Below are positions 3,310-24,998 of a stretch of DNA of 28,412 nucleotides, one piece after another. The DNA is from a virus. The position numbers and the translations under genes are program-made. The first letter of the stretch is position 1; each line of letters starts with the position of its first letter. The stretch covers positions 1-28,412 of IMG/VR virus record IMGVR_UViG_3300042549_001890; one strand, given 5' to 3'. The notes beneath the pieces are model-generated. The model worked only from the letters and a program-made list of their open reading frames with translations, was not told where the DNA came from and did no database searches.

Positions 3310-3675
3310 ATGAACACAATTAAAGGAAAAGTAATCGTAAAAAATGAAACGATTAAAGTTACAGAAAAGTTTAGTAAAAGAACGTTTGTAGTTGAAGAAG
3401 CTGGAGATTATCCGCAACTAATTGAAGTTGAATTACAGCAGGATAAATGTAGTCTTATTGATTCGATTCAAGTGGGGCAAGTTATTGAAGCACATTATAA
3501 TTTGCGAGGACGTTCTTGGACTAATCCTCAAGGCGAAGTTAAGTATTTCAATACGATTGTTGTATGGAAGATTGATGGTATTGTTACAGAAATGAAGTCA
3601 ACAAGCGAGAAGTTAAGCGAAGTAGTGAATCGTGCGACTATTGCAGATGAGGTCGGGGATGATCTACCTTTCTGA
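3310..3675 (+). CDS. DUF3127 OB-fold single-stranded DNA-binding-like protein
   Basis: A 121-aa protein whose first ~90 residues match the DUF3127 pattern: KGKVIVKNETIKVTEKFSKR, QLIEVELQQDK, and IEAHYNLRGRSW followed by YFNTIVVWKI. This is a predicted OB-fold common in Bacteroidota and their phages. After a flexible Ser/Glu-rich linker it ends in DEVGDDLPF, which has the acidic-plus-PF form of the C-terminal tip that bacterial SSB uses to recruit partners. Together with the preceding YqaJ exonuclease this points to the phage single-stranded DNA-binding protein. The start is preceded by an A-rich leader (CAAAACAAA), as usual for Bacteroidota, with no Shine-Dalgarno. A strong hairpin follows the gene. 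The SSB role is inference. Confidence 0.88.
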   Translation: MNTIKGKVIVKNETIKVTEKFSKRTFVVEEAGDYPQLIEVELQQDKCSLIDSIQVGQVIEAHYNLRGRSWTNPQGEVKYFNTIVVWKIDGIVTEMKSTSEKLSEVVNRATIADEVGDDLPF

Positions 3676-3699
3676 TTTACACTAAGTAGGTTACTGTAA

Positions 3700-3742
3700 A
3701 CAAAATTACGGCAGTATTTTGAATTTGCTGCCGTAATTTTGT
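3700..3742 (+). terminator. strong hairpin terminator after the OB-fold gene
   Basis: A perfect 15-bp inverted repeat, ACAAAATTACGGCAG (3700-3714) and CTGCCGTAATTTTGT (3728-3742), encloses a 13-nt loop. The 3' arm carries the T-run, and the mirror-image A-run on the 5' arm makes it potentially bidirectional. It cleanly separates the replication operon from the cassette-like region. Confidence 0.75.
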
Positions 3743-3746
3743 CCAG

Positions 3747-3767
3747 TTAAATAAAACTAAACGGGAC
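3747..3767 (+). repeat. 21-nt dispersed repeat, copy 1
   Basis: TTAAATAAAACTAAACGGGAC. Copies differing at one base lie at 4449-4469 and 5215-5235. Copies 1 and 2 are each followed at once by a TAACGTTTGAC attC-like arm; copy 3 is followed by the start of the broken ORF at 5239. The block therefore behaves as part of the mobile unit rather than of any gene. Confidence 0.75.
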
Positions 3768-3820
3768 ACTAACGTTTGACGGCTTGGCGCATTTTCAGTT
3801 GCGCTAAGGAGTGGTTATGG
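3767..3820 (+). repeat. attC-like site A
   Basis: CACTAAC on the left and GTTATGG on the right bracket an inner stem, CTTGGCGCA (3783-3791) with TGCGCTAAG (3800-3808), with one wobble pair and an 8-nt loop. The arrangement of AAC / inner arms / GTT is that of integron attC sites, where the cut would fall after G3814. The spacers between outer and inner arms are unequal (9 and 5 nt), so it is an imperfect member. It precedes the 70-aa ORF. Confidence 0.55.
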
Positions 3821-3859
3821 TTTGTAGACTAAGATTAAAAACAAATAAATTTTATTATT

Positions 3860-4072
3860 ATGAAATACGAAATTGAAAAACAAAAAATAGATGATTTTTT
3901 TGAGACGGTTAAAGAACTCGAAACATTATTGACTGAAAGAATATCAGATTTGCACAATGTAGAAGGTGCAATGCAAGCAAGACACGCTTATGTTTTTTAT
4001 AGACGAGTGTTGTGGGATGCGAAATATTCTCTTAGAGACAGTCTCAAAGAAATCAAAGATAAATCTAAGTAG
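3860..4072 (+). CDS. hypothetical protein in cassette-like unit (70 aa)
   Basis: A 70-aa charged, helical protein (MKYEIEKQKIDDFFETVKEL at the start, SLKEIKDKSK at the end) with a central VEGAMQARHAYVFYRRVLW segment. There is no signal peptide, membrane segment or recognised catalytic motif. The leader is AT-rich (TTTTATTATTATG) without Shine-Dalgarno. The ORF lies between attC-like sites A and B, with the stop ten bases before site B, so it would be the single gene of one cassette of roughly 310 bp. No function is proposed; small orphan ORFs are normal in cassette arrays. Confidence 0.7.
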   Translation: MKYEIEKQKIDDFFETVKELETLLTERISDLHNVEGAMQARHAYVFYRRVLWDAKYSLRDSLKEIKDKSK

Positions 4073-4081
4073 GCTATTAAC

Positions 4082-4134
4082 CATAACGTTTCTCGGCTTT
4101 GTTTAGTGCCGACTTAGAAAACTAAACGTTCTAA
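4082..4134 (+). repeat. attC-like site B
   Basis: AACGTTT (4085-4091) pairs with AAACGTT (4124-4130), and TCGGC (4093-4097) pairs with GCCGA (4108-4112) around a 10-nt loop. The right side carries an 11-nt bulge including CTTAG. The two-tier stem with a bulge on one side resembles attC folding and shares the AACGTTT arm with sites A and D. It is the most divergent of the group. Confidence 0.45.
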
Positions 4135-4151
4135 CTTAAAAAATATTAATT

Positions 4152-4394
4152 ATGAAAACAGAATTTAACAATACCGAAAACGAGGCATTGAACAAAACCG
4201 ATGTTAGTGGCAGGTTATCTTCTTACCAAAAAATGAAATTAAAATACGAAAAACAAATTAGAGAACTTACTAACGATATAATCACATTAGTTGAGGAAAA
4301 AGATTTTGAGAAAACAACTATTGTAAAACTCCAATGGAAAATTCGTTTAGATGTGGAAAAAGCTATTTGGTATGGTTCGCCAACTTGCCACTAA
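4152..4394 (+). CDS. hypothetical coiled-coil-like protein in cassette-like unit (80 aa)
   Basis: An 80-aa protein with a polar N-terminus (MKTEFNNTENEALNKTDVSG) followed by a long charged helix (YQKMKLKYEKQIRELTNDI and onward), likely to form a coiled coil. No enzyme motif is visible. The leader is AT-rich with no Shine-Dalgarno. Its TAA stop (4392-4394) is the TAA of the TAAC that opens attC-like site C, so gene and site end and begin on the same bases, as often seen in integron cassettes. Function unknown. Confidence 0.68.
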   Translation: MKTEFNNTENEALNKTDVSGRLSSYQKMKLKYEKQIRELTNDIITLVEEKDFEKTTIVKLQWKIRLDVEKAIWYGSPTCH

Positions 4395-4443
4395 CATCCG
4401 TATAAGCGCTGTTTTTTTCAATGGCGCTTATACCTTGTTATAT
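4389..4443 (+). repeat. attC-like site C
   Basis: TAACA (4392-4396) pairs with TGTTA (4436-4440); unpaired TCC and CT spacers follow; then GTATAAGCGC (4400-4409) pairs perfectly with GCGCTTATAC (4424-4433) around a T-rich 14-nt loop. Two short stems separated by a small asymmetric spacer, with AAC and GTT at the edges, is the textbook attC layout. The expected cut is after G4437. This and site F are the best members of the group. Confidence 0.68.
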
Positions 4444-4469
4444 TTTTTTTAAATAAAACTAAACGAGAC
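4390..4469 (+). repeat. 80-bp direct repeat, copy 1
   Basis: Contains attC-like site C plus a T-tract and the 21-nt TTAAATAAAACTAAACGAGAC block. It is nearly identical to 5156-5235, with differences confined to a few stem and loop positions. Here it is followed immediately by attC-like site D, so positions 4437-4517 would form an 80-bp unit without an ORF. Confidence 0.85.
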
Positions 4470-4530
4470 ATAACGTTTGACAACTTAGCGCATACTGAAA
4501 GTTGCGCTAAGTTGCTGTTAGCAAATCGTT
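4467..4530 (+). repeat. attC-like site D
   Basis: TAAC (4471-4474) and GTTA (4517-4520) flank a perfect 12-bp inner stem, CAACTTAGCGCA (4481-4492) with TGCGCTAAGTTG (4503-4514), around a 10-nt loop. An extra outer pairing of AACGTTTG with CAAATCGTT (one extra base) is possible. Its right arm, TGCGCTAAGTTGCTGTTAG, closely matches that of site E (5042-5060). Confidence 0.65.
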
Positions 4531-4564
4531 GCGGAAAAATTATAAATGAACTAAAATTAGAATT

Positions 4565-4849
4565 ATGGAAAGAGTAAAAATAGATAGAGAGAAAACCATT
4601 CAAGAAATGGCTTACGAGATTATTGATAAGTTTGGGAATACTGAAATGGGAAGGTATAAAATACAATTGATGTGTGACCAATACGCTGAAGAATATCTGC
4701 AAAAACAAAAACACAAATCAATTGATGAGCAAGTGGGAATACTGAAAGATACTCTTGAAGAAATGATGACTGGGTTTGATACAGAAGAAAACAGAATAGA
4801 TTTCATTCTTGATATTTGTAACGGTTACAGAAAACGTATTTCGAAGTGA
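4565..4849 (+). CDS. hypothetical protein in cassette-like unit (94 aa)
   Basis: A 94-aa acidic, helical protein (MERVKIDREKTIQEMAYEI start; NGYRKRISK end) with a central YAEEYLQKQKHKS stretch and a DTLEEMMTGFDTEENRIDF segment. No motif is recognised. It has an AT-rich leader and no Shine-Dalgarno. It lies directly downstream of attC-like site D and its TGA is 18 bases before the left arm of site E, which fits one cassette carrying one gene. A GTG at 4846 overlaps its stop, but the downstream gene more likely starts at 4909. Confidence 0.7.
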   Translation: MERVKIDREKTIQEMAYEIIDKFGNTEMGRYKIQLMCDQYAEEYLQKQKHKSIDEQVGILKDTLEEMMTGFDTEENRIDFILDICNGYRKRISK

Positions 4850-4867
4850 GTAACCTAGCAATGTTTG

Positions 4868-5060
4868 CTAACGGTAGGCAGCTTGGCGCAGATTACGAAT
4901 TAAATAAAATGATTATGGAATACGAGGGTAAATTATACGGAAAATTAGGGTTTAAGCAATTTTTTGATACTGGCAAAACATCTAAAGATTGGGATAGTAT
5001 GGAAAGAAAGATTGCTGAATTGAATGAAGAACTAAGTAAATTGCGCCAAGGTGCTGTTAG
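4868..5060 (+). repeat. attC-like site E with a 151-nt insert between its arms
   Basis: Left arm CTAACGGTAGGCAGC then TTGGCGCA (4868-4890); right arm TGCGCCAAG (5042-5050) then GTGCTGTTAG (to 5060). CTTGGCGCA pairs perfectly with TGCGCCAAG, and CTAAC with GTTAG. The right arm matches site D closely. The arms are separated by 151 nt that include the start of an ORF, so this is either an attC with a long terminal loop or two half-sites from different units. Confidence 0.48.
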
Positions 5061-5160
5061 TGGTACGTTGCCAACTTATAATATCTGTGGCGGATGTGGG
5101 GCTGATAATCCATCTAAAAGGTGTATTGGATGCAGACACGTTTTCGGCAATGGACACTAA
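4909..5160 (+). CDS. zinc-ribbon protein in cassette-like unit (83 aa)
   Basis: Starting at ATG 4909 the product begins MIMEYEGKLYGKLGF, continues through a coiled-coil-like helix (ERKIAELNEELSKLR), and ends in a four-cysteine knuckle, CGGCG followed by RCIGCRH, which should bind one zinc. The frame is open further up to GTG 4846 (104 aa), but those extra residues translate the attC-like left arm, so the shorter form is preferred. The right arm of site E lies inside the coding sequence (around LRQGAVSG). The TAA stop (5158-5160) is shared with the TAAC of site F. A nucleic-acid or protein-binding role would suit a zinc ribbon, but nothing specific can be said. Confidence 0.62.
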   Translation: MIMEYEGKLYGKLGFKQFFDTGKTSKDWDSMERKIAELNEELSKLRQGAVSGTLPTYNICGGCGADNPSKRCIGCRHVFGNGH

Positions 5161-5209
5161 CATCCGTATAGGCGCAGTTTTTTTCAATTGCGCTTATACC
5201 TTGTTATAT
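5155..5209 (+). repeat. attC-like site F
   Basis: TAACA (5158-5162) pairs with TGTTA (5202-5206); spacers TCC and CT follow; the inner stem GTATAGGCGCA (5166-5176) pairs with TGCGCTTATAC (5189-5199) with one G-T wobble. It has the same layout as site C, with an expected cut after G5203. Relative to site C, the top of the stem has changed from T opposite G to an A-T pair, and one inner pair from A-T to G-T, so the fold is kept although the sequence differs. Confidence 0.68.
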
Positions 5210-5235
5210 TTTTTTTAAATAAAACTAAACGAGAC
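5156..5235 (+). repeat. 80-bp direct repeat, copy 2
   Basis: Near-identical to 4390-4469: attC-like site, T-tract and 21-nt block. Here it is followed by the start of the interrupted ORF at 5239 instead of by another site. Confidence 0.85.
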
Positions 5236-5238
5236 GAA

Positions 5239-5496
5239 ATGACAACACATTTAAGAGTATCAACTTATTATAATGATGAACATCCTCAAAGGATGATGAA
5301 AAGATTAGGTATTACTTACCAGCATTCAACACCGCAAAGTATGGGCGACCAATAGTGGTTCTGGAATTGCGAAAATGTACCTGACCCTTTACCTGAGCAT
5401 TGCAGTATTTTGGAATGCAACGACCCTATGGAGATGATTGGTTGGGGATTGTCAAAAGAGGACGCTGAAAAAATACGTGATTACACTTTGTTATAA
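5239..5496 (+). pseudogene. small cassette ORF interrupted by an in-frame TAG
   Basis: ATG at 5239 opens 38 codons (ending STPQSMGDQ), then TAG at 5353-5355, after which the same frame stays open for 46 more codons (WFWNCENVPDPLPEH onward, ending RDYTLL) to TAA at 5494-5496. Both halves look like one compact protein with conserved-looking aromatic and Cys residues, so a single nonsense change (for example TGG to TAG, giving DQWWFWNC) is the simplest reading. TAG is a normal stop elsewhere in the window (3214-3216, 4070-4072), which argues against recoding. It follows the second 80-bp repeat and would be the last unit of the array. No family is assigned. Confidence 0.65.
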
Positions 5497-5506
5497 TTAA
5501 AATTAA

Positions 5507-5518: not shown

Positions 5519-5572
5519 ACCGATAATCCGCCAAAAGCATAATTATTTTATAGTTTTGGCACAGTATAAAAA

Positions 5573-10197: not shown

Positions 10198-10242
10198 CAT
10201 GTTAGCTAAAACTAACGCAAATGTCTAAAAATGGATAATATA

Positions 10243-10461
10243 ATGTCTAAAATTACAGCGGTTGAATATTTAGTAGAACAAATTAGAAATAACAAATTCA
10301 TAGGAGCATCAGAACAAATAGAAGTAATTTATGCAGCCAAACAAATGGAGAAGCGACAGATAATTGATTCTTTTAATAAAGGATTTATAACCGACCAATG
10401 GGATAAAAGCAAAGAAAATAAAGCAGAACAATATTATAACGAAACCTTTAAATCAGAATAA
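10243..10461 (+). CDS. MTAVE/EQYYNETFK family protein, paralog 1 (72 aa)
   Basis: First of six related small genes. Layout: N-terminal (SKI)TAVEYLVEQI, middle KQMEKRQIID, C-terminal AEQYYNETFKSE. The start at 10243 (MSKITAVEYL) is preferred over ATG 10231 because the paralogs begin at MTAVE; ATGTCTAAAA occurs both at 10221 and at the chosen start. The family is familiar from Bacteroidota phages but has no known function; the helical, charged sequence suggests a small soluble protein. Composition turns AT-rich exactly here, after the nuclease gene. Confidence 0.75.
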   Translation: MSKITAVEYLVEQIRNNKFIGASEQIEVIYAAKQMEKRQIIDSFNKGFITDQWDKSKENKAEQYYNETFKSE

Positions 10462-10462
10462 G

Positions 10463-10651
10463 ATGACAGCAGTAAAATGGTTATTAGAAAATCTTATATC
10501 TGAACCCTATTCAGAAACAGACTTTGAACATAATGAAAAATGTTGGGACAAGGCAGCAGAAATGCAGAAGCAACAGATTATTGATGCTTTACATTATTTT
10601 GGTATTGAAAATGCAGAACAATACTATAACGAAACATTTAAAAACAAATAA
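10463..10651 (+). CDS. MTAVE/EQYYNETFK family protein, paralog 2 (62 aa)
   Basis: Starts MTAVKWLLENLI, has KAAEMQKQQIIDALHYF in the middle and ends AEQYYNETFKNK. It begins one base after the stop of paralog 1, and the 3' end of paralog 1 plus this start form the repeated junction AAATCAGAATAAGATGACAG. The middle segment between the conserved ends is unrelated in sequence to paralog 1, so only the ends and the MEKQQIID core are under visible constraint. Confidence 0.75.
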   Translation: MTAVKWLLENLISEPYSETDFEHNEKCWDKAAEMQKQQIIDALHYFGIENAEQYYNETFKNK

Positions 10652-10654
10652 GAT

Positions 10655-10915
10655 ATGACAGCAGTAGAATGTTTAAAACAAGATATAGACCTTGAATTAA
10701 AACACGGAACTAAAATGGTTGTTAATTGGGATATGTATTTACAAATGGAAAAGCAACAGATTTTAGATTGTTGTATTACAACTACTCAAGATGTTTGGAT
10801 TTCAGCTATGGGTGCATTTGGTCAAGAAATTAATTTTTGTGATGAAGATTTAGAAGAACAAAAACAAGAAGCAGAACAATATTACAAAGAAACATTTAAA
10901 CAAAAAGAACAATGA
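10655..10915 (+). CDS. MTAVE/EQYYNETFK family protein, paralog 3 (86 aa)
   Basis: Starts MTAVECLKQDIDLEL, core MYLQMEKQQILDC, end AEQYYKETFKQKEQ. It is the longest member, with an insert after the core (TTQDVWISAMGAFGQEINF) that other copies lack. Its stop overlaps the next start (ATGA), the only member followed by an unrelated gene. Confidence 0.75.
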   Translation: MTAVECLKQDIDLELKHGTKMVVNWDMYLQMEKQQILDCCITTTQDVWISAMGAFGQEINFCDEDLEEQKQEAEQYYKETFKQKEQ

Positions 10916-11127
10916 AAGAAATAACTAAATCAGTAATTAAGCTGTCGGATATTCCACAGCATTTACAACAAAATGAAATCCTACAAGGATACAAGGCGCA
11001 TACATATGCAGAGTTTCACATTGATGACTCAGAACAAGATGAGTTAACCTTGTGGCTACTTAGTCAGTATCCTACATTAAAACGGAAGATAAGTTTTTTA
11101 ATTCACATTGATAAATCAGAGTTATGA
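10912..11127 (+). CDS. hypothetical protein inserted in paralog array (71 aa)
   Basis: Begins MKEITKSVIKLSDIPQHLQQ and ends ISFLIHIDKSEL, with an acidic middle (FHIDDSEQDELTLW). It has none of the TAVE, MEKQQIID or YYNETF motifs of its neighbours, so it is a separate gene in the middle of the array. ATGA overlaps link it to paralog 3 before and paralog 4 after. No function is recognised. Confidence 0.7.
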   Translation: MKEITKSVIKLSDIPQHLQQNEILQGYKAHTYAEFHIDDSEQDELTLWLLSQYPTLKRKISFLIHIDKSEL

Positions 11128-11360
11128 ATTCAGCAGTAGAATGGTTAATAGATGAATCTATGAAATTAGTTGTACAATACATGCAAGGCACATTGAATGA
11201 AGATACATTAGATGGTGTTATTTATGAAATTGGAACAAAAGCCAAAGAAATGGAGAAGCAACAGATTATAAAAGCAGTCTATGATTCAATGGGAACAAAC
11301 TTTGATCCTAATATGGGTAGAGCAGAATTGTATTATAATGAAACTTATAAACCAGAATAA
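11124..11360 (+). CDS. MTAVE/EQYYNETFK family protein, paralog 4 (78 aa)
   Basis: Starts MNSAVEWLIDESMKL, core AKEMEKQQIIKAV, end AELYYNETYKPE. The first residues are changed from MTAVE to MNSAVE and the terminal motif to LYYNETYK, making it the most diverged member at both ends. It is one base from the next paralog. Confidence 0.75.
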   Translation: MNSAVEWLIDESMKLVVQYMQGTLNEDTLDGVIYEIGTKAKEMEKQQIIKAVYDSMGTNFDPNMGRAELYYNETYKPE

Positions 11361-11361
11361 C

Positions 11362-11553
11362 ATGACAGCAGTAGAAACACTACTAGATTGGCTTAAAAAT
11401 AATCATTACTATATTGGCAATGATTTACTAGAGAAAGTTGAAGAGCTTAAGGAAATGGAGAAGGAAATAATACGTACAGCATATCTTGATGGTATGGATG
11501 GTGAATATAATACATCAGAACAGTACTACAACGAAACCTTTAAATCAGAATAA
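11362..11553 (+). CDS. MTAVE/EQYYNETFK family protein, paralog 5 (63 aa)
   Basis: Starts MTAVETLLDWLKNNHYYIG, core LKEMEKEIIRTA, end SEQYYNETFKSE. ATG 11362 is chosen; the upstream open frame is only antiphase reading of paralog 4. Its first ~35 residues are nearly identical to paralog 6, with many silent third-base differences, showing an older duplication kept under protein-level selection. Confidence 0.75.
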   Translation: MTAVETLLDWLKNNHYYIGNDLLEKVEELKEMEKEIIRTAYLDGMDGEYNTSEQYYNETFKSE

Positions 11554-11554
11554 G

Positions 11555-11719
11555 ATGACAGCAGTAGAAACACTATTAGACTGGCTCGGTAAGAATCATT
11601 ACTACATTGGTAATGACTTATTAGAAAAAGTTGAAGAGCTTAGGAAAGTAGAGAAGCAGAAGTTTGAGAAATTAAAAGATTTCGATACATGGAAGGAATG
11701 GAAAAATAAAACAGAATAA
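11555..11719 (+). CDS. MTAVE family protein, paralog 6, variant C-terminus (54 aa)
   Basis: Starts MTAVETLLDWLGKNHYYIG like paralog 5, but after EELRKVEKQK it continues with FEKLKDFDTWKEWKNKTE and lacks the EQYYNETFK tail. It is the last and shortest member, possibly truncated or fused to another tail at the array end. It begins one base after the paralog 5 stop with the same junction sequence. Confidence 0.72.
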   Translation: MTAVETLLDWLGKNHYYIGNDLLEKVEELRKVEKQKFEKLKDFDTWKEWKNKTE

Positions 11720-11720
11720 T

Positions 11721-14732: not shown

Positions 14733-17700
14733 TTAGTATCTTGCTCCAGCTCTACCACTGCTTCTTGCTCCAGCTCTGCCGCTTCCAGTACTTTTAGATA
14801 TAATTTCTTTAGCAGTAATTCCTTGTTGTATTTTTTCTAAATCTGAAATACTTACATCTTTTAATGTATATCTAACTTCACTATATACTTTAGACTGTTC
14901 TTTAGTAAGGCCACCATTTCTCTCTACTCGTTCTATCTCAGATATAACATTGTCTATCTTCATGGTGGACTTCATTAGGTCTAACTTATACCCTTCTACA
15001 TCTCCAGTAGCTTTTTTTATAGCCTTATACTCTTCATACTGAGTTTCAGTAAGGCCTCTGCTTTCAGCTATTTTCTGCATCTTCTTTGCAATAGTACCAC
15101 CTTCTCTAGGTAGTAGTCCAGATAAAAATAATCCATCCAACCATACTGCTAGTTCTAACTTCTTTTGATCTTCTGGAAGTAGTATTTTTTCAACTTCTTT
15201 TCCGTTATACTCTTTAGTATATTTTCCAGTACTTGCAGCATTAGTTAATTCCATAAATTCAATTGCCTTATCTATAACTATAGTTAAAGTTCCTGCGCTA
15301 AAAACCTTTTCTGAGTTATACTGTTCGAAGTTAAACTTCTGTTCACTAATCCATTGATCTCTAAATTCTTTTTCTGTTTTAGTATCCATTGGATCCTTAT
15401 CTCTAGACTCTAGGTATTTATTTCTTTGATCAATAGCTATCTTTAGATCATCATTACTATAAGTAAAGTCTTGAGCTTTGCTAGCTATTTCATTAACAGC
15501 AAAAACTATTATACCATCTGCTAAAGGATTAGGAGATAATAAATCTTTAATTAAATTAACACCAAACTGTTCTTTGGTATATTTTTTTCTTTTGTCTTCC
15601 TCTTCTTCTGGTTCTTCATAACCCATCAAGGCGGCAGCTGCTTGTCCCCATAGTTCTTTAAATACAACTCCCATTGCATTAAACACAGCTATCTCTACTA
15701 GCAGTCCAGAAATTGATTTTACAGCCGCTACTTTATCTTCCTTAATAGAGTTTGAATAAAATATTGTACGTAAATCAGATGCCATCCTAGTCTTTTGATT
15801 TAAAATAAAGTTAGCAAAAGGAAGTAGTATTTTTCTTATAGCTTTCTTTGTTGAGTCTGATGATGACATAAAATCCCCCATAAGCATAGGGTCTGATACG
15901 TTCTGCTGTCTATCTACCATATGTTGTGCGTAGTCAGCTGCGTCTTGATTTATTTCATGCGTGTTCCAGTCAATAGATCTAGTGTCTACTCCTTGTAGTT
16001 TAAGATCTTTTAAATAGTAAGCCTTCCATGAAGCACGGGCAATATATACGTCTGGATTTGCTAAGAATTTTTTCAAATAAAACTTATTCAAGTCTCTAAT
16101 AGCTGAGGTTAACTGAGCGCCCTTACTATTAGCAACCTTTTCTAAGTACTTGTTACCACTAGATATCTGTGAAGACGACTCCATTCCTCTATTAATAATA
16201 GCCATTCCACTAGAATTTAACCACTTATTATAGTCATTATCACTAACTAAATCAAAAAGATTGAATGTTCTTCCAGTATTTACAATAGTATTCATTATAA
16301 CTGGCACAGTTTGAAGAAGCGGAGCCATTATAGTTCCAAGCGCCTTTGCTGTTCCAATAGATGAAAGAGTATCTAGTAACTTGTTAGCCTCATTAAACGA
16401 AGTATCAGTTGTAAATGATTTATGTTTTGATTGTCTTATGTAGTTATTTATTCTCTTCTTTAGAATTTCTCTATCTTCTTTAATTTCAATTATTTTATTC
16501 ATGGCTTTTGAGTTCATGAACGATGCTATCTGAACTATTGGAGCCGCTGTATTTATATCTATAAGCGCAGCCTTCATTGAGTTAGAGTTGCTCATATCAA
16601 AGTCAAGGTTGACAAACCTGCTTTTGTTTTGATCGTCTCTATTTAGTAAAGTACCAAAGTTTTTATTAGACTCCATTAATACTCCAGCCTTATTCTTATC
16701 GGTAACCAGACCAAGATCGACACCAAATGAGCCCATATCTTCAGTACTATCAAGTAAGAACGTCTCATTATTTATCTTAGAATATCTGTCTGGCGTATAG
16801 TTTAAGTCTTTACCTAGCTGCGTGTTGTACACAGCCAAACTAACGTCATACAAGTCAGAGTAGTGTTCTGACCACTTATTAATCCACCAATTAACAGCAG
16901 CACTATTTGTAGGATCAACTCTTGATTCGATGTCTATTATATTTATATTAGACTCATCTAGTCCAAGTTTATTAAATAACTCTTCATAGATTTCACCCAT
17001 CTTCTGTTGTTTTTCATCTCCATCAATCTTAAGTGTGTTAATACTTTCTTTAATTAATGAAACCCTTCTTTTTAATTCATTCTGTTGCTGAAGGTCTGTG
17101 CCTATTAATGTTCTTTTTAAATATGCAAGCATTCCTCTCTCGTATGTATTCATAGCAGAGTTAAAGGCCTCACCATTTGACATCTTCCATACAAGTCTAC
17201 CAAGAAAATTCTTTTTAGAAAACTCTCTTCCATACTCATCAACAATTTTAGTATGCGTATTATCTGCCTTAGCCATTCCATTCTGGAACTCATTAAGGCC
17301 CATTGCTTTAGTAAACTGAAGTCCTGATTTTACACCTAAAAACATTCTATCAATAAGAACTGGCAGCGTAGTGAAGTTATATGCTTGAATTCTACTTAAC
17401 CCTTTAGTAAATAATAACTTTAATGGCCTTGCCTTGTTTCCAGTATTAGCAAAATCAGATGCGTTCTTAGCTCCATTAAATCTTCTAACAGAGGCCTCTA
17501 ATCCATCAGTTATTCCATTAACTATGAAGTTGTTTATTGACTCAACTATATTATAAGCGTCAGTTAAAGACATCTCATTAATGTCTATTTCTAGCACTTG
17601 TTTTATTATAGCTTTTGATTTCTCGTCTATATTTAACTCCTCTCCTGAGAACTGATCAACAGATCCATCCTTTAGCATTCTGTTTATGTATGTGCTATAG

Positions 17701-20700
17701 AAGTCAAACATCTTATTTACATACTTACGAAGTTCTGCCTCTTTCTTTTGCTTATCTTTTATTTCAACTCCTTCAATAGACTTTATAACCTCGATTATAT
17801 CCTTAAGCTCCATATCTTCAGATATAACTCCTTGATCAACTAGGTCCTGATACTCAGAAAGTTTTTCCTTTTTTATTTTAGCATCTTGAGCCTCTATTGT
17901 ATCTTCAGTGAACTTATTCATTTCAGCTATATCTACAGCCTCTTTAAGCACAAACTTTGTGTCACTAACAGATCTCTTAAGTGCAGATACTATTTTTTCT
18001 GCATTATCAATGTATGACTGCACGTCATCCATCATTGATGGATCAATGCTAGTAAATGCTTTAGCCATACCAGCTACCTGTGCTTGATTATTTTTTAATG
18101 CTCTTCTAATTGTTTTTCTTAATTTAAAAGCTAAAGATAACTGATTTTGATAGTCTGCATTGTTAAATAATCTCTCAGCGTATTCTAAGTATCTAGAAAC
18201 CATTACTGGATTATCTACATTTAAGTATGCTAATCTCTTAGCTAGTGATGCAGCCTGTGCAGCAGATATAGATCCCTTACGCTTCATCTGATTGATAGCA
18301 ACTACTATGCTTCTTTGTTTATTCTTAATATCTTTAACTGCAATATTAGCAGCTTGTTGTTTAGCCTTTATAAATTCATTACGTAATGTCTTTATAAACA
18401 TAGTAACCTTGTCAGTATTTTGTGTTCCTAATACTTTAGCTACAGATGGTGCTGTTTTTTCTTTCTGTGATTTTGATTTTCTAAAGTCACGAATTACTTG
18501 TTCACGCTCTATATCGCTAGCATTTTCATACCATAAAGATGTCTGTATGTAGTCAATAGAATTCTGTAAAGACTCGTTCCAGTCTTTACCTCTATTTTGA
18601 GATTTTTCAAATACACCTTCAGCCTCATTAAACATTCTGCTTTTTTCTGGCTCCATTGCATTATCAATCTGAGATTGAGTGTATCCTTGCTGCTTAAGGT
18701 ACTCACGAATACCAGCGTCAGAGAATCCTTTATCTCTAGTTATTCTAACAATATCGTTGATAGATAATGGCTTCTGCTTTCTAATTATATTTTTAGATAG
18801 TATAGATTCTACTGCTTTTACTATTTCAGGATTACTTCCATCTTTTTTTGCTTCGTAGTAAGATTTAGAAATTTTACTATATGAATTATCTAAGTATGCT
18901 TCTTTTCCATCATGCTGTCTAACTAATGCAAGTATAGATTTTTTACCTAGTTCTTTTGATACAGTTAATCTATGATGTCCATCAACAACTATATGTAATC
19001 CATCTTTTGATTTTTCTACAATTATAGGCTTTCTTTTTTTAGTATTATAGCCTTCTTTTATCATATCAAGTTGTTCTGTTTGATAATTATCTTCATTATC
19101 AAACTCCCAATGATCTCTACTTAATAGAGGATTACCTTTTCTATCTGTTCCATAAAAATAATCAGTAGAAGATATTGGTATAATCTCCAATTTATATTCA
19201 CCTTCAATTGGAATAGCTGCACTATCAGGAAGTTCTGTATTAACAGATTTAGAGTCTATATATTTAGTATCATCTAGTTTCCAGTTACCATAATTTCTTA
19301 ATATTTCATCATCAATTATATTTTGTGAACTTAGATTTTGAGTTATAATTTCTATATCTGATTCAGGCTTCTGCTTCCTAGGCTCCATACTTTCCTCAAT
19401 GCCTGTCACCTCGTCTGTAATCTGCTTACGTGGTGTGATCTGCTTGGAGATGTTCTTAGGGAACCTCTTAAAGTTTATTTCTCCGCTAACTCCCTCTCCC
19501 TTATATGTAATGGTGTCTCCATCGATGCTAGTAACCTTACCCTTAGATCCGTACACCTCAACGTCGTCACCTACCTTGTAAGTCTCCTCTTCGATAGGCT
19601 TCATAGGTACGTTCTCCTTAGCTGCCTCAAGAGACATAGTGGTCTGAGCGCGAAGTTCGTTGTTTCTCCACTTAGCAACGACCATGTCATAGCCATTCTC
19701 GTTAGCAACCTGAGTAACAAATGCTAGCTGGTAGTTTGGATTACCGAATGATTGTGAAGGACGAGCAACCTCAAAACGCTTCTTAGCTTCGTCGTAGAAG
19801 TTATCTGGGTCCTTATTGAAGTCGTACACCTTGTCGCTAGGTATAAGCACCGTGTGCTGTACGTTACCAACACCTGGCTCAACCTGATTATCCATCGTGT
19901 AGTACATCGCAAGGCCTCCGACAGCAGATAAGGCTCCACCCTCTTCCTTGCCAGTTATAATATTCTCTCCAGTGCCAGGCTTGATAACGTCTCTCTTCTG
20001 GTTGGAGTAGTGATGGAACACGAAGTTGCCATCCTTATCCTTAGTCAGCTTCGCAGAAGTTTCTGGTGATAGTTGCTTTCTATTTGCTATTTCTTTTATA
20101 CCTATACCATAAGGAGCAACAACTTGAGATTGCTCAGATCTAGACATATTATCACGATACTTATCTCTTATTTCAGAAGGCATAATATCATATGCATTGA
20201 TAATTTTATCAGGAACTCCAATAACAGATCCTAATATATTAGTTTCATATGTAGAATGATTAGATTTTTCACCTAATTTATCTGCTTTTAAAACCAACAT
20301 TATATCACCCATATCAAAATTATTATCTTGATAGAATCCATCACGTAAATCATTAGGATCAACAAATGCATTGTATTTTTCTAATACTTTTTTTGCAGGT
20401 GTATTTTTTGTTTTTTGTTCATTTATAGCTATAATAAAACTCTTTCTATCTATTCCCATGAATAAATCTTCATATGAATTATATTTTTCTAAGATAGATT
20501 TTATTGCAGAAGTAGGTTTAGCTTCTAATAATTCTTTTTTAAAATTATCAAATTCAATAGCTCCTTCAATTCTTCTTCTAATTAAATTAGCTACAGTCTT
20601 ATTAAATAATTTTGATTTTTGAGGAGATCCACTAATTATAAATATGTAATCAGATTTTGATATATTATTTTCTAATGTTTTTTTAGCAGCTCCACTAGCC

Positions 20701-23700
20701 CATATTATGTTATTATCTCTATTTTCAGGATCTAATGCAAATGATGGTCCTGCATCTAAGAAATGCTCTCCATTTAATACTGAATCAAAATAATTTCCTC
20801 TACCTAATTGATCAGCAACCCAGAACCATACTTTTTGTTTTTTAGATACTATATCCGATATTAGTGAATCAACATCTATTAAATCTTCTTTTGTTACAAA
20901 TGTTAATTTCTGATCTTTACTTGTTTTTACTTGCTTTCTAGGTAAAGTAGACTCAATAATATCAGTTGTAACTCCAGTTATTGACATCATATTAATATCA
21001 GCCTCCTTGATAACTGTTCCTTTAGCTACCTTTCTAGCGATAGTGTTTAGTATATCATAGGTCTCGTTTCTATTGAACGGGTCTAGGTTAAGCATCTTAG
21101 CTAACTTATCTATCCATCTAGTGATAATATCCTTGACGTTAGTAGAGAACGAGTTATAGTTCTCAGCCAACATACCAACTAACTCAGCTATCTTCTCCTC
21201 ATTCTGAATATTCTCTTCGTATCTAGATATGAAGTCCTCTAGCTTCTTTTTAAGTTCTGGATTGTTATCAATCTTAGATGCAATAGCTTGGACCATACGC
21301 TTAGTTGTAGCGGCTGCATTTGCATCTGTCTTAACCTTGTTTATTAAGATAGCATGGAATACCTCGTGAGCTACAGTTCTAGCATTAGCCTGTGTTCCAT
21401 TTATATGAATAGTATTAGTCTTTGCATTGAACTCACCGTTAGAAGACTGCTTCATGCCTTCCTCTTTTGTGGCTGCTCTGTAAGATGCATCTGTATCGTG
21501 AACTATAAACTTAGTACCAGGTATAACCTTAGACACTGCCTTGGCTGCTTTAGCTACTGTCTTAGATATTTTCTTATTAACTATAGTAGACGCCTTCTGA
21601 TCAATCTCTTGATCCGTTCCAGACAGCAACTGTCCGATAGCCTCAACCTCTTGTTCGATTGTAGCCTCTGTAGTCTGCTCAAACACGTTAGGCAATCTTC
21701 CTTCCTTCAATGCTTTTGCAATCTCTCTGTGCTGCTCTGGAGTAAACTTCATAGGGTTCTTTCCAGTACCACCAGTCTTTACGTTTTCAAACGTTCCTAA
21801 GTCAAATAACGACTCCTGATCAGCAAGTCTACCAAACTCAATAGCTTGTTCTCTTGACGTCTCAGGAACCACAACGCTGAGGTCTATCGATACCTGGTTG
21901 CTGTTGGGAAACTTATATATCCCAGCCTTAACAACTCCAGCATCACCGATCATGTCTTGACGCTCTTCGATAAAGTCTGCTATCATCTCTGGAGTCAACT
22001 CCTCCATCGTTGTATTTACACTATCAACTGGTACTACCAGACCTACGCCTTCGTACTTTGTACCGTCAAGATTTAATGTAGCCCCATCCTCAGCTTCCGC
22101 AGCGAGAGATTTTACTCTCTCTACTTCGGACGTTGTGTTAGTTGTGATAATAGGCTTATCGATTACTACTTTTTCTTGTACTTCGCTTGGGATATTGCTA
22201 TCGCCAAGATTTGTTTCATCGACCGTGGTGTCCCGTTGGATCCCTTCGCCGACCCCGACTTCTTGTTGTCCTTCACCAGCTCCTTGATATTCGCTGACAC
22301 CGCCTTCTGCTGTGACTTCTTGGATGGGCTGCTCGATTTCTTTAGTGGCATCTTCTGATATTTTTATTAGGTTATTATTTATTTCGGCAACTCTTGCCTT
22401 CTGTGTTGCAACAAGGTTCTCGTCCTTGCCAGCAATTTCTTTTTCTAGTCCTTCTTTTTCTGATAAAAGTTCAAAAGCAACTCTCTTTCCTCTTGTACTT
22501 AATTTAGCTGGTATCTTATCTAGTAATCCAACAGTGTTATTTATATCTCTAACACTAGACTGCATCTCTTCTTTGGTTATAGATCCATTCTTGTATTTTT
22601 CAATCTCATTTAATTTTACAGCCTTCAGTGTATTGCTATCCGTTAAGGATTGATACATGTTCTGAAATTTTTCATCTGACTGCTCGTTTACTCTTGATTT
22701 CTTATACACATCAAATGATCCCATCACTGCACCACCAATAGCTCCAGCTGCCGCCTCCTCTAATGCTGAACCAAGTGCGTCAACTAATCCTTTCTTTGTA
22801 GTTAAGTCTGGTACATAATCGAAAACTTTACCATCATGGTATGCGCTTACAACATTCTTTATTCCAGTCTCTGCTAATGATTGAATGCCTTCAGTAGTAC
22901 CTTCTGATAACATACCGTTAACTACCTTTACTCCAGTAGCCTTCATTGTATTCTTTAAGCTAGTTCCAATTAGCTGATCTACTGTTTCTATAGACGCATT
23001 CTCAGGCATATCTTTTAACGCATTTAAAACTACGTTAGATGTGAATTTTTTCATGAATGGACTCTTAACTTGTCCAGACGCTATATTAAAACCTATCTTC
23101 TCTAGTTGACCTATAGCTAGACCATATACTCCAGAAACTAAATTCTTTTCCCACTTGTTCAGCACGTCAAACTGTTCGTCTGCCATCTCATCAGCCATGG
23201 AGTTATAAGACATATTAAAAAACGCAATTCCTTGAGCTACCTTATTTCCGCCTCCAGATACTGACGCTCCTACTGATTCAGCTAATCCAAATACAGCCTG
23301 CTCTAAAATGTTTCTATCTACAGAAGAGAAGTACTCTTCGTTAACGGTTCCAAGTGATCCTATATTATTTATTCCTTGCTTAACCTCTTCTCCTATTGTT
23401 CTCTTTAATTTTGAAGATACCTTCTGTCCTATCTCAGCGTCAGTAAATCCTTCGTCCTTTAAGTTCTGATACTCTAATGGATTTAATCCGCTATTAGGTA
23501 GTAACTCTGGAAGTATATCCATACCAACATTCATCAAGGCTCTAGGTGTAGCAGTTATTCCCTTTGATAATGAAGCAAATATTCCTCCTACAAAGTTTCC
23601 TTGTTTTTCTTTTTGTAGTATATATGAACCAACAGACTGCTTGTAGTTCATCTCTGTTTGTTCAATTTCTGCAACTGAATAAGCTAACTTTCTTTGGTCT

Positions 23701-24998
23701 GATTTTATATCAGACTGCATGATAGTCATCTGGTCTAGTAATGAATCATCTCCAGTTTTCTTATAGTCTAAAGATAACTTTTCAAATTTGTTTATTTTTT
23801 CATCTAATCCTCTTTTAGATGCAGCTGTGTTTCTATACTCTTTAGTTATGTAGTTCTCAAACTCACCTTCAGTTAACATGTACTCACCATATCTATATGG
23901 ATCCTTTGAAGTTATATTAACTAATTTTTTAACGTCTAATTTTTCATCATTTAATGCGGATACCTCATACTCATTTAGATATTTCCCATTCATGAACGAC
24001 TTCAGTATGCTAGCTTGTTCTTCAGGTGACGAAGACTGTAAGTCTATATCTATAGCGTCAGTATATGTAACTCCATCTGAGGAATAACTTACCTTCATAG
24101 CGTCTCCCATTCCAGACTCTTCGAATGAAAATCCATACTTACCAAACTGCTTATTCATCAAAGGAACTGTACTTTCTTCAGTAAGTCCCATTTGTTTTGA
24201 ATTAACAATATTATCGATAGACTTAGATAGCTTATCTTTTTTGAGTCCTGATTTTAATTTAAAATCCTCTTCTGCATTAAACTCGGCAAGTGCTTTCTTT
24301 GATTTAGGATCGTTAATGTTTCCATTTATATCAACATTATATCCCTTTCTATTAAGCATCTTCAGTGTCTCAGAAGATTTATATTTTTGCTCTAGGTTTA
24401 ATAAATCTTCTGGACTAGCATCCTTTCCTAGGTCTCTTTTTGCTTTTTCTTTTGAAACGAAGTCAACCTGTTGAGTAGAACTCATGCCACTTTCTGGCGT
24501 AACAAAAAAATCTTCCTTGAATGCTTCTTGTGCTATCTCTTGTCCGATAGTAGGAACTTTCTTTTTTTCTTTTTCTTTAGATGGTATTGGTTGCCAGTCT
24601 ATTTTTTCCTCATATCCAGGATCGTAAATCTTACTTGCACTCTTCTCTAATTTATCAACTCTAGATTTTACATCTCCCTTTTGTATCTTTATAAAGTTTC
24701 CAGACTTATTTGTATCTACATACCATCCATCTGTTGTTTTCTTATATACAGCTAGCTCGTTACCAGGAAATGAATACAGTCCCTCAGGCTTTCCTGAAGC
24801 AGAAGAACCCGAAGGCTTTTGCTCTTTCTTGGACTTTGTAACCAATGAAGATAGTAAGTCTGCTGGTTTCAAAAGCGATCCCGTATCCCTTGAAGTAGAC
24901 TCTTTTTTTTTTACTTGTACTGCATCACTTGGCGGTACGAAAGAAGCGTTATCGTTTAAGACAACTGCATCACTTGGAGGTATAAAATTATTTGGCAT
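14733..24998 (-). CDS. giant polyvalent virion-type protein (metallopeptidase, ART-like, ParB-like)
   Basis: A 3421-aa protein, far longer than ordinary virion proteins and similar in plan to phage large polyvalent proteins co-injected with DNA. In order: twin PPSDAV motifs near the N-terminus; helical and Gly/Ala-rich hydrophobic stretches (~470-790); an acidic linker (~880-960); a zinc-metallopeptidase motif HEVFH (1211-1215); an unrecognised domain (1354-1640); an ADP-ribosyltransferase-like segment beginning FHHYS (1661); an SH3/KOW-like barrel (~1807-1846); a ParB-like motif VVDGHHRL (2004-2011); a small helical repeat (KGFSDAGIREYLKQQGY, ~2090); then ~1300 mostly helical residues ending in duplicated GRAGAR. 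RKQ tripeptides at 1354, 1640, 1857, 1874 and 2073 bound the modules. It starts one base after the 512-aa gene. Likely delivered into the host to protect or prepare the cell; specific activities are inference. Confidence 0.9.
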   Translation of the reverse strand: MPNNFIPPSDAVVLNDNASFVPPSDAVQVKKKESTSRDTGSLLKPADLLSSLVTKSKKEQKPSGSSASGKPEGLYSFPGNELAVYKKTTDGWYVDTNKSGNFIKIQKGDVKSRVDKLEKSASKIYDPGYEEKIDWQPIPSKEKEKKKVPTIGQEIAQEAFKEDFFVTPESGMSSTQQVDFVSKEKAKRDLGKDASPEDLLNLEQKYKSSETLKMLNRKGYNVDINGNINDPKSKKALAEFNAEEDFKLKSGLKKDKLSKSIDNIVNSKQMGLTEESTVPLMNKQFGKYGFSFEESGMGDAMKVSYSSDGVTYTDAIDIDLQSSSPEEQASILKSFMNGKYLNEYEVSALNDEKLDVKKLVNITSKDPYRYGEYMLTEGEFENYITKEYRNTAASKRGLDEKINKFEKLSLDYKKTGDDSLLDQMTIMQSDIKSDQRKLAYSVAEIEQTEMNYKQSVGSYILQKEKQGNFVGGIFASLSKGITATPRALMNVGMDILPELLPNSGLNPLEYQNLKDEGFTDAEIGQKVSSKLKRTIGEEVKQGINNIGSLGTVNEEYFSSVDRNILEQAVFGLAESVGASVSGGGNKVAQGIAFFNMSYNSMADEMADEQFDVLNKWEKNLVSGVYGLAIGQLEKIGFNIASGQVKSPFMKKFTSNVVLNALKDMPENASIETVDQLIGTSLKNTMKATGVKVVNGMLSEGTTEGIQSLAETGIKNVVSAYHDGKVFDYVPDLTTKKGLVDALGSALEEAAAGAIGGAVMGSFDVYKKSRVNEQSDEKFQNMYQSLTDSNTLKAVKLNEIEKYKNGSITKEEMQSSVRDINNTVGLLDKIPAKLSTRGKRVAFELLSEKEGLEKEIAGKDENLVATQKARVAEINNNLIKISEDATKEIEQPIQEVTAEGGVSEYQGAGEGQQEVGVGEGIQRDTTVDETNLGDSNIPSEVQEKVVIDKPIITTNTTSEVERVKSLAAEAEDGATLNLDGTKYEGVGLVVPVDSVNTTMEELTPEMIADFIEERQDMIGDAGVVKAGIYKFPNSNQVSIDLSVVVPETSREQAIEFGRLADQESLFDLGTFENVKTGGTGKNPMKFTPEQHREIAKALKEGRLPNVFEQTTEATIEQEVEAIGQLLSGTDQEIDQKASTIVNKKISKTVAKAAKAVSKVIPGTKFIVHDTDASYRAATKEEGMKQSSNGEFNAKTNTIHINGTQANARTVAHEVFHAILINKVKTDANAAATTKRMVQAIASKIDNNPELKKKLEDFISRYEENIQNEEKIAELVGMLAENYNSFSTNVKDIITRWIDKLAKMLNLDPFNRNETYDILNTIARKVAKGTVIKEADINMMSITGVTTDIIESTLPRKQVKTSKDQKLTFVTKEDLIDVDSLISDIVSKKQKVWFWVADQLGRGNYFDSVLNGEHFLDAGPSFALDPENRDNNIIWASGAAKKTLENNISKSDYIFIISGSPQKSKLFNKTVANLIRRRIEGAIEFDNFKKELLEAKPTSAIKSILEKYNSYEDLFMGIDRKSFIIAINEQKTKNTPAKKVLEKYNAFVDPNDLRDGFYQDNNFDMGDIMLVLKADKLGEKSNHSTYETNILGSVIGVPDKIINAYDIMPSEIRDKYRDNMSRSEQSQVVAPYGIGIKEIANRKQLSPETSAKLTKDKDGNFVFHHYSNQKRDVIKPGTGENIITGKEEGGALSAVGGLAMYYTMDNQVEPGVGNVQHTVLIPSDKVYDFNKDPDNFYDEAKKRFEVARPSQSFGNPNYQLAFVTQVANENGYDMVVAKWRNNELRAQTTMSLEAAKENVPMKPIEEETYKVGDDVEVYGSKGKVTSIDGDTITYKGEGVSGEINFKRFPKNISKQITPRKQITDEVTGIEESMEPRKQKPESDIEIITQNLSSQNIIDDEILRNYGNWKLDDTKYIDSKSVNTELPDSAAIPIEGEYKLEIIPISSTDYFYGTDRKGNPLLSRDHWEFDNEDNYQTEQLDMIKEGYNTKKRKPIIVEKSKDGLHIVVDGHHRLTVSKELGKKSILALVRQHDGKEAYLDNSYSKISKSYYEAKKDGSNPEIVKAVESILSKNIIRKQKPLSINDIVRITRDKGFSDAGIREYLKQQGYTQSQIDNAMEPEKSRMFNEAEGVFEKSQNRGKDWNESLQNSIDYIQTSLWYENASDIEREQVIRDFRKSKSQKEKTAPSVAKVLGTQNTDKVTMFIKTLRNEFIKAKQQAANIAVKDIKNKQRSIVVAINQMKRKGSISAAQAASLAKRLAYLNVDNPVMVSRYLEYAERLFNNADYQNQLSLAFKLRKTIRRALKNNQAQVAGMAKAFTSIDPSMMDDVQSYIDNAEKIVSALKRSVSDTKFVLKEAVDIAEMNKFTEDTIEAQDAKIKKEKLSEYQDLVDQGVISEDMELKDIIEVIKSIEGVEIKDKQKKEAELRKYVNKMFDFYSTYINRMLKDGSVDQFSGEELNIDEKSKAIIKQVLEIDINEMSLTDAYNIVESINNFIVNGITDGLEASVRRFNGAKNASDFANTGNKARPLKLLFTKGLSRIQAYNFTTLPVLIDRMFLGVKSGLQFTKAMGLNEFQNGMAKADNTHTKIVDEYGREFSKKNFLGRLVWKMSNGEAFNSAMNTYERGMLAYLKRTLIGTDLQQQNELKRRVSLIKESINTLKIDGDEKQQKMGEIYEELFNKLGLDESNINIIDIESRVDPTNSAAVNWWINKWSEHYSDLYDVSLAVYNTQLGKDLNYTPDRYSKINNETFLLDSTEDMGSFGVDLGLVTDKNKAGVLMESNKNFGTLLNRDDQNKSRFVNLDFDMSNSNSMKAALIDINTAAPIVQIASFMNSKAMNKIIEIKEDREILKKRINNYIRQSKHKSFTTDTSFNEANKLLDTLSSIGTAKALGTIMAPLLQTVPVIMNTIVNTGRTFNLFDLVSDNDYNKWLNSSGMAIINRGMESSSQISSGNKYLEKVANSKGAQLTSAIRDLNKFYLKKFLANPDVYIARASWKAYYLKDLKLQGVDTRSIDWNTHEINQDAADYAQHMVDRQQNVSDPMLMGDFMSSSDSTKKAIRKILLPFANFILNQKTRMASDLRTIFYSNSIKEDKVAAVKSISGLLVEIAVFNAMGVVFKELWGQAAAALMGYEEPEEEEDKRKKYTKEQFGVNLIKDLLSPNPLADGIIVFAVNEIASKAQDFTYSNDDLKIAIDQRNKYLESRDKDPMDTKTEKEFRDQWISEQKFNFEQYNSEKVFSAGTLTIVIDKAIEFMELTNAASTGKYTKEYNGKEVEKILLPEDQKKLELAVWLDGLFLSGLLPREGGTIAKKMQKIAESRGLTETQYEEYKAIKKATGDVEGYKLDLMKSTMKIDNVISEIERVERNGGLTKEQSKVYSEVRYTLKDVSISDLEKIQQGITAKEIISKSTGSGRAGARSSGRAGARY

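Follow-up and report, generated by a model that had tools for sequence, protein, structure and literature searches.

Introduction

Cassette arrays without an integrase are already known to be borne by phages. According to the accessible part of the report by Qi et al. (2023; PMC9892861), such clusters of attC sites lacking an integrase (CALINs) occur in virulent phages, including Polaribacter phage P12002L, in which attC-type sites stand beside small genes, DNA methyltransferases are among the cargo, and the sites are recombinable by IntI1. For two arrays a typical direction is given, and that part of the report mentions neither inverted genes, nor gene starts inside the site, nor a recombinase other than IntI. 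Here we describe an array that resembles these in sites, cargo, and lack of an integrase, in IMG/VR record IMGVR_UViG_3300042549_001890, the whole of which (28,412 bases; hereafter, the window) was analyzed. It lies between the gene for a DUF3127 protein resembling single-strand DNA-binding proteins (SSB) and a BT4734-like primase/helicase gene. We consider it likely that this interval is a mobile integron-type gene-cassette array of a Bacteroidota phage, with inverted, start-carrying sites and with a XerA-like tyrosine recombinase probably acting in trans. A first-pass annotation of the window had presented the carriage of integron cassettes by phages as a new insight; phages do carry them, but this was already published. 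What is new is that the phage cassettes are inverted, that in about half of them the predicted gene start lies inside attC, and that site type and neighborhood point to a XerA-like recombinase. In the open-access literature, we found no description of an inverted, start-carrying site or of a XerA-like partner.

Three other systems invite comparison. The IntI-encoding chromosomal integrons of Bacteroidota (our loci G272 and G304, and others) likewise contain an array of single-gene cassettes, R''/L''...L'/R' hairpins, and an R' core distal from the recombinase gene. They differ in that their genes are mostly canonical (3' end at attC), their sites are of a distinct sequence type, the array is 5' of intI, and IntI bears an extra insertion. 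The XerA-like or integron-like simple tyrosine recombinases (NCBIfam NF040815; the "integron-like" subgroup of PMC8138268) have active-site residues R, K, H, R, H, and Y invariant in our alignment; phage members score 165–206 bits (cut-off, 220), and an additional N-terminal domain is present in several bacterial ones. We found no published link of these enzymes to cassette arrays in the open-access literature. Finally, ORF-11 in attI1 (reviewed in PMC8876359) is a precedent for a recombination site with translation initiation signals for the adjacent cassette. ORF-11, however, is a separate short open reading frame (ORF) in attI that works by translational coupling, whereas here the in-frame fusion is between attC itself and the cargo gene.

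Results

The first-pass annotation had listed six hairpins with the attC layout. Six hairpins bounded by a left TAAC and a right GTT indeed exist between 3767 and 5209, but two of them, E3 and E6, are of a distinct type that the attC model does not recognize. When positions 3701–5260 were scanned for hairpins, four sites were found at a score of at least 9 (0.25 expected from 60 Markov sequences modeled on this region) and three at a score of at least 13 (0.0 in 60 Markov sequences). All point in one direction and alternate with genes, and the scan revealed no AAC..GTT hairpin array of equal quality elsewhere in the 28 kb window. Single-stranded DNA (ssDNA) folding, proposed by the annotation for the attC bottom strand, gave z-scores of −2.1 to −5.0 for the elements on the + strand, which corresponds to that bottom strand; the sites may fold in the same way in vivo.

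To compare the hairpins with attC sites we used R1, a covariance model built from 26 bacterial sites only, which came from arrays of Flavobacterium noncentrifugens, Belliella, and Bacteroidota metagenome-assembled genomes (MAGs) and from two IntI-bearing integrons. Every site in the bacterial alignment has AAC and GTT; the outer bases of E1–E6 fit the RYYYAAC/GTTRRRY consensus only in part. R1 matched E2 (4082..4208; E 1e-12 across all 129 model positions), E4 (4469..4522; E 3.7e-6, ssDNA z −4.2), and E1 (3768..3819; E 3.5e-5), the last two being attC-like sites with a short loop; the R' core TAA|C lies at the left edge of E1. (Array features are all given on the + strand.) E2 had been delimited as 4082–4134, which is too short: the paired unit extends to 4208, and gene B has its start codon in the loop of this unit and continues through the right arm, which is coding. 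E5 (4867..5061) also folds as attC-like, with a loop of ~150 nt that includes the start of gene D and ssDNA z-scores of −3.45 on the + strand and −1.17 on the − strand. It was absent from the cmsearch matches to R1, perhaps because of the long loop. Hence, of the two or more attC sites expected of a CALIN, the window provides E2, E4, and E1 by R1 and E5 by fold alone.

R1 found no site on eight non-Bacteroidota control loci and two control phages. Related phages contain 23 sites that it matches with E below 0.02. When the viral collection was searched for a short motif, at least 120 stretches were returned; 80 loci were kept, and R1 identified 169 sites in them among the matches listed, for a total of at least about 190 in other viral contigs. 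As far as can be judged from sequence, the phage sites equal those of bacterial cassette arrays in fold, core, and spacer asymmetry. P12002L was dropped as an experimentally proven example of this system, since R1 gave no site on it; it does show weaker hairpins with the same polarity. A weak R1 match at the start of the contig (109–222; E 0.016) is possibly a decayed attC site.

E3 (4389..4443; CTAACATCCGTATA..TTGTTATA; ssDNA z −4.95) and E6 (5155..5209; 96% identical to E3) are two copies of an anchor-type hairpin, which in relatives is found at the downstream end of the array. Both are candidates for an anchor or attI-like element, and either E3/E6 or the leader sequence CCAG|TTAAAT could be the attachment site.

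We next turn to polarity. In IntI-bearing Bacteroidota integrons, R1 sites are located 5' of intI and have R' as the core farther from that gene, in 12/12 loci with arrays. Judged against this geometry, the phage sites have their R' core at the left edge, and the phage genes therefore run opposite to classical cassettes. When gene neighbors of 185 phage and 173 bacterial sites were counted, phage sites had 335 neighbors on the same strand and 26 on the opposite one (335/361 on the attC bottom strand), whereas the bacterial arrays had 52 and 283 (52/335 inverted); the p-value of this contrast is not to be taken at face value because the sites are non-independent. The arrangement typical of CALINs, with attC at the 3' end of genes that run away from attI, is thus inverted here. 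Reading the sites in the + direction, with attC at the gene 3' end, was ruled out by the IntI geometry, by the F. noncentrifugens arrays, and by the breakpoints described below, all of which place R' at the left edge.

In about half of the phage cassettes, B and D of the window included, the gene appears to start within attC. Eighty-eight non-redundant downstream genes begin inside the site, 62–76 nt (quartiles) from its left edge and after an A-rich stretch. Site-encoded N termini such as ...FAKPVL|GAV, ...QPFCQTRV|SGS, and ...ALNKTDV|SG (window gene B) precede 52 different cargo clusters. No Met occurs within 15 residues after the site in 61/84 genes, and in some products the leader is closely followed by a domain of the C5 or N6/N4 methyltransferase, Mom, or aminoacyl-tRNA synthetase-like kind. 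The leaders of the 84 genes use reading frames in the proportion 45, 35, and 4, and the third frame usually hits a stop in the core TTA(A/G). Because two frames are used, we rejected the idea that the leader is a functional peptide of constant sequence; it seems rather to result from translation of the site. At the other end, the stop codon of a cassette gene is often part of the next core (TAAC), as in gene B, whose TAA overlaps the TAAC core of E3 (CTAAC). In two other viral contigs, L126 (1942–2211) and L242, the translated attC arm makes up the hydrophobic part of a lipoprotein-like signal (AFAYALLVAVIFCGC).

As the first-pass annotation had noted, no integrase is seen in the window, a 28 kb fragment. 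Nor is any other tyrosine recombinase seen there, and none was matched by PF00589 in the 14 nearest related records. Since the window phage shows none, it probably borrows its recombinase. IntI scores above the curated cut-off in 105/395 Bacteroidota genomes, far more often than might be expected from the single complete Bacteroidetes integron in the IntegronFinder 2 survey of complete genomes (PMC9024848). Our own hairpin scan was too strict at IntI loci, which at first looked attC-free; R1 later gave adjoining arrays at 12/20. Across genomes, however, IntI presence is only weakly associated with R1 sites (odds ratio 1.5–2.2), which led us to the XerA-like family.

Four large attC-bearing phages encode a XerA-like tyrosine recombinase ~0.5–1.6 kb from the R'' end of the array, and three of these four contigs contain phage hallmark genes (Dda-like helicase, T4-type RNA ligases, DNA transfer protein, endolysin). 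Chromosomal relatives of the enzyme occur in many bacteria, including some with arrays but with no IntI above the cut-off. In F. noncentrifugens, ~15 sites begin 565 bases after the XerA-like gene. A profile of the family found it in 116/395 Bacteroidota genomes; R1 sites are present in 92/116 genomes with it and in 83/279 without (odds ratio 9, p 8.5e-20), and the association persists among IntI-negative genomes (odds ratio 8). When loci were picked by XerA-like recombinase score alone, R1 sites lay within 6 kb in 13/20, and 12 of these 13 had the same geometry, with the array off the 3' end of the recombinase gene and R' distal; several of the array-less loci end at a contig edge. The XerA-like gene thus adjoins arrays about as often as IntI does (12/20). 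At four chromosomal loci (L148, L150, L151, and L146), the XerA-like recombinase beside the array has ~100 additional N-terminal residues, which form a domain containing a WSxTxxxWY motif; phage members lack this domain.

The sites themselves fall into sequence types linked to one or the other recombinase. Profiles of XerA-linked and IntI-linked sites classified 67/68 held-out sites correctly in a leave-one-locus-out test. Applied to the phage sites, they assigned 179/185 to the XerA type and none to the IntI type, with six undecided; E2 is of the XerA-linked type by 30.5 versus 0 bits. These results bear on the most serious alternative, namely that the array is a classical CALIN of bacterial-integron cassettes recruited by an ordinary host IntI, with the inverted genes a matter of chance or a selected subset. 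In its favor, IntI is present above the cut-off in 105/395 Bacteroidota genomes, R1 also matches IntI-linked arrays, and attC sites of other virulent phages were recombined by IntI1 in the laboratory, according to the accessible part of PMC9892861. We nevertheless regard it as unlikely, given the site subtype and the weak association of IntI with sites; moreover, gene C has no relative in the 395 Bacteroidota genomes, in a search run with no positive control. Thus the annotation was right to see an integrase-less cassette array in a phage, but the array is not simply a classical CALIN, because its sites are inverted relative to the genes, gene starts lie within sites, and the site sequence type tracks the XerA-like recombinase rather than IntI.

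Comparison with relatives showed that cassettes are exchanged. An empty site is provided by the array-free contig L004 (primase 99% identical), which joins exactly at the TTAAATAAAACTAAACGGGAC leader repeat. Exactly E1 plus gene A is present in a different viral contig (L122/L089), 98.4% identical over 319 bases and with TAAC at both ends; a second whole cassette (350 bases, 94.6%) is common to L252 and L280. Five relatives (L092, L093, L095, L097, and L126) have other cassette combinations at the equivalent place, and differing genes adjoin the left edge of the anchor hairpin (CTAAC|). Compared with L092, the breakpoint falls at the left edge of E5, TTTGCTAAC|. The first-pass annotation had proposed that related phages be checked for unit boundaries at G/TT, and the outcome favors the array: breakpoints fall at the core, TAA|C on one strand and G|TT on the opposite one, as expected for a CALIN. 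Over 87 phage loci, a site and its downstream gene were common, with the break at the left edge, in 20 cases, and an upstream gene and site, with the break at the right edge, in 0. The left-edge breaks fall on 4–5 nt of common sequence.

This asymmetry makes it highly improbable that no site-specific recombinase is involved and that homologous or microhomology phage recombination acted at conserved hairpins, e.g., terminators, whose TAAC/GTTA ends arose by chance. The window does encode a YqaJ/RecE-type exonuclease and an SSB (Pfam and PHROG searches), and several breakpoints lie at right edges or in the leader repeat. Yet the clustering of breaks at one edge on so short a common sequence, the fold, core, and spacer asymmetry shared with bacterial cassette arrays, and the recombinase genes that adjoin such arrays argue otherwise. 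Dispersed hairpins of the repetitive extragenic palindromic (REP) or miniature inverted-repeat transposable element (MITE) kind, with no cassette exchange, can practically be dismissed: small non-autonomous elements can end in hairpins and single sites are scattered in bacterial genomes, but those of the window are confined to the array, and whole units of site plus gene are exchanged with no dispersed copies.

Discussion

Several observations weigh against an array run by a XerA-like recombinase. The main ground for caution is that the XerA-like family lacks the 30–40 residue insertion of IntI, which has been called essential for integron function (PMC8138268), and is placed outside the IntI clade; a complete integron would have an IntI with this insertion, and the recombinases adjoining arrays in other phages do not have it. 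E3 and E6 have no R1 match, E1 and E4 are weak in the subtype test (9.0 versus 0 and 1.9 versus 0 bits), and R1 was trained on a mixture of sites of both recombinase types. Sites within arrays and related contigs are non-independent, so that p-values are overstated. In five cases over 87 phage loci the downstream gene is common and the site is not, with the break at the right edge; gene C likewise stands behind three different attC sites in the window, L093, and L095. In such cases, sites and genes appear also to separate in a way that a simple R' crossover does not explain.

With these reservations, we propose that the cassette unit is an attC-like site plus the gene downstream of it, and that crossover would take place at the left edge of the site, in the core G|TT (+ strand, TAA|C), the gene having the opposite orientation to that in classical cassettes. 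For about one cassette in two among the phages, and for B and D in the window, the site loop would provide the 5' leader and start codon, and the right arm would be translated as the first ~17 residues. A cassette of this type would therefore bring its own translation start and could run with the phage operon. Cassettes would pass between phages as site plus gene, moved by a recombinase that is probably XerA-like rather than IntI and supplied by the host or another phage.

More broadly, we lean toward the view that Bacteroidota and their phages harbor a second integron-type lineage, run by XerA-like tyrosine recombinases instead of IntI, in which phages would have their own cassette pool and the inverted site would serve as a portable translation start and N-terminal leader. 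If so, IntI is not the sole recombinase running gene-cassette arrays, and arrays now classed as lacking an integrase may have a neighboring partner that was overlooked. DNA methyltransferases, a Mom family protein, and small uncharacterized proteins would be prominent in the circulating phage pool, a cargo suggestive of exchange of genes that counter host defense. A site that doubles as a translation start would also explain how captured genes are expressed with no dedicated promoter platform. It would become directly testable how new cassettes form and by which recombinase those of phages are moved.

Cassette Genes and Other Features of the Window

The ORFs between the hairpins are as first described: four small, co-directional, mutually unrelated frames (70, 80, 94, and ~100 amino acids) and a broken fifth. 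Gene A (3860..4072; 70 amino acids) has no assigned function. Gene B (4152..4394; 80 amino acids) starts within E2 and has the leader MKTEFNNTENEALNKTDVS. Gene C (4565..4849; 94 amino acids), also with no assigned function, has relatives in ~25 viral contigs; many of these phages (L096, L098–L117) have no attC sites nearby, suggesting that phage genes become cassettes. Gene D (4909..5160) lies in a frame open from 4846; its start is probably the ATG at 4909 inside E5, and the product has a C-terminal CxxC..CxxC motif. The fifth frame, a remnant of gene F (5239..5497), contains an in-frame stop, and in the array-free L004 its uninterrupted copy lies directly behind the leader.

Upstream, the DUF3127/phage single-strand DNA-binding protein gene (3310..3675, + strand; Pfam PF11325 3e-22, PHROG SSB 1e-31) is the only part with DNA similarity to the nearest isolate phages. 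It is followed 3' by a terminator-like leader hairpin (3699..3748; ssDNA z −7.3) and then CCAGTTAAAT; the hairpin varies in relatives, and L004 has another one at the equivalent place. A direct repeat overlooked by the first-pass annotation, TTAAATAAAACTAAACGRGAC, occurs at 3747, 4449, and 5215. Repeat comparison defined the leader copy as TTAAATAAAACTAAACGGGACA (3747..3768), with extra copies at 4449–4470 and 5215–5236.

Downstream, the right flank TAATCCGCCAAA..GTTTTGGCAC (5523..5562) is conserved in six relatives (L004, L088, L091, L093, L097, and L126). An Rfam scan for known RNA families gave only chance matches in the array region. The adjacent segment 5560–5915, in which relatives differ, is non-coding and contains tRNA-like pieces (GGTTCGAGTCCGCCCTCAC; GGTGGGTTCGATTCCCACTAGAGCTGC); ARAGORN makes no call there, and the sole Rfam result is a tmRNA 3' fragment (E 0.0017). 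Farther away, positions 10231–11720 contain a tandem series of five or more small paralogous genes (MTAVEWL...AEQYYNETFK type) whose DNA repeats are 61–84% similar, which looks like local gene amplification. On the − strand, 14733–24998 is one open frame of 3,421 codons, probably encoding a virion or ejected protein.

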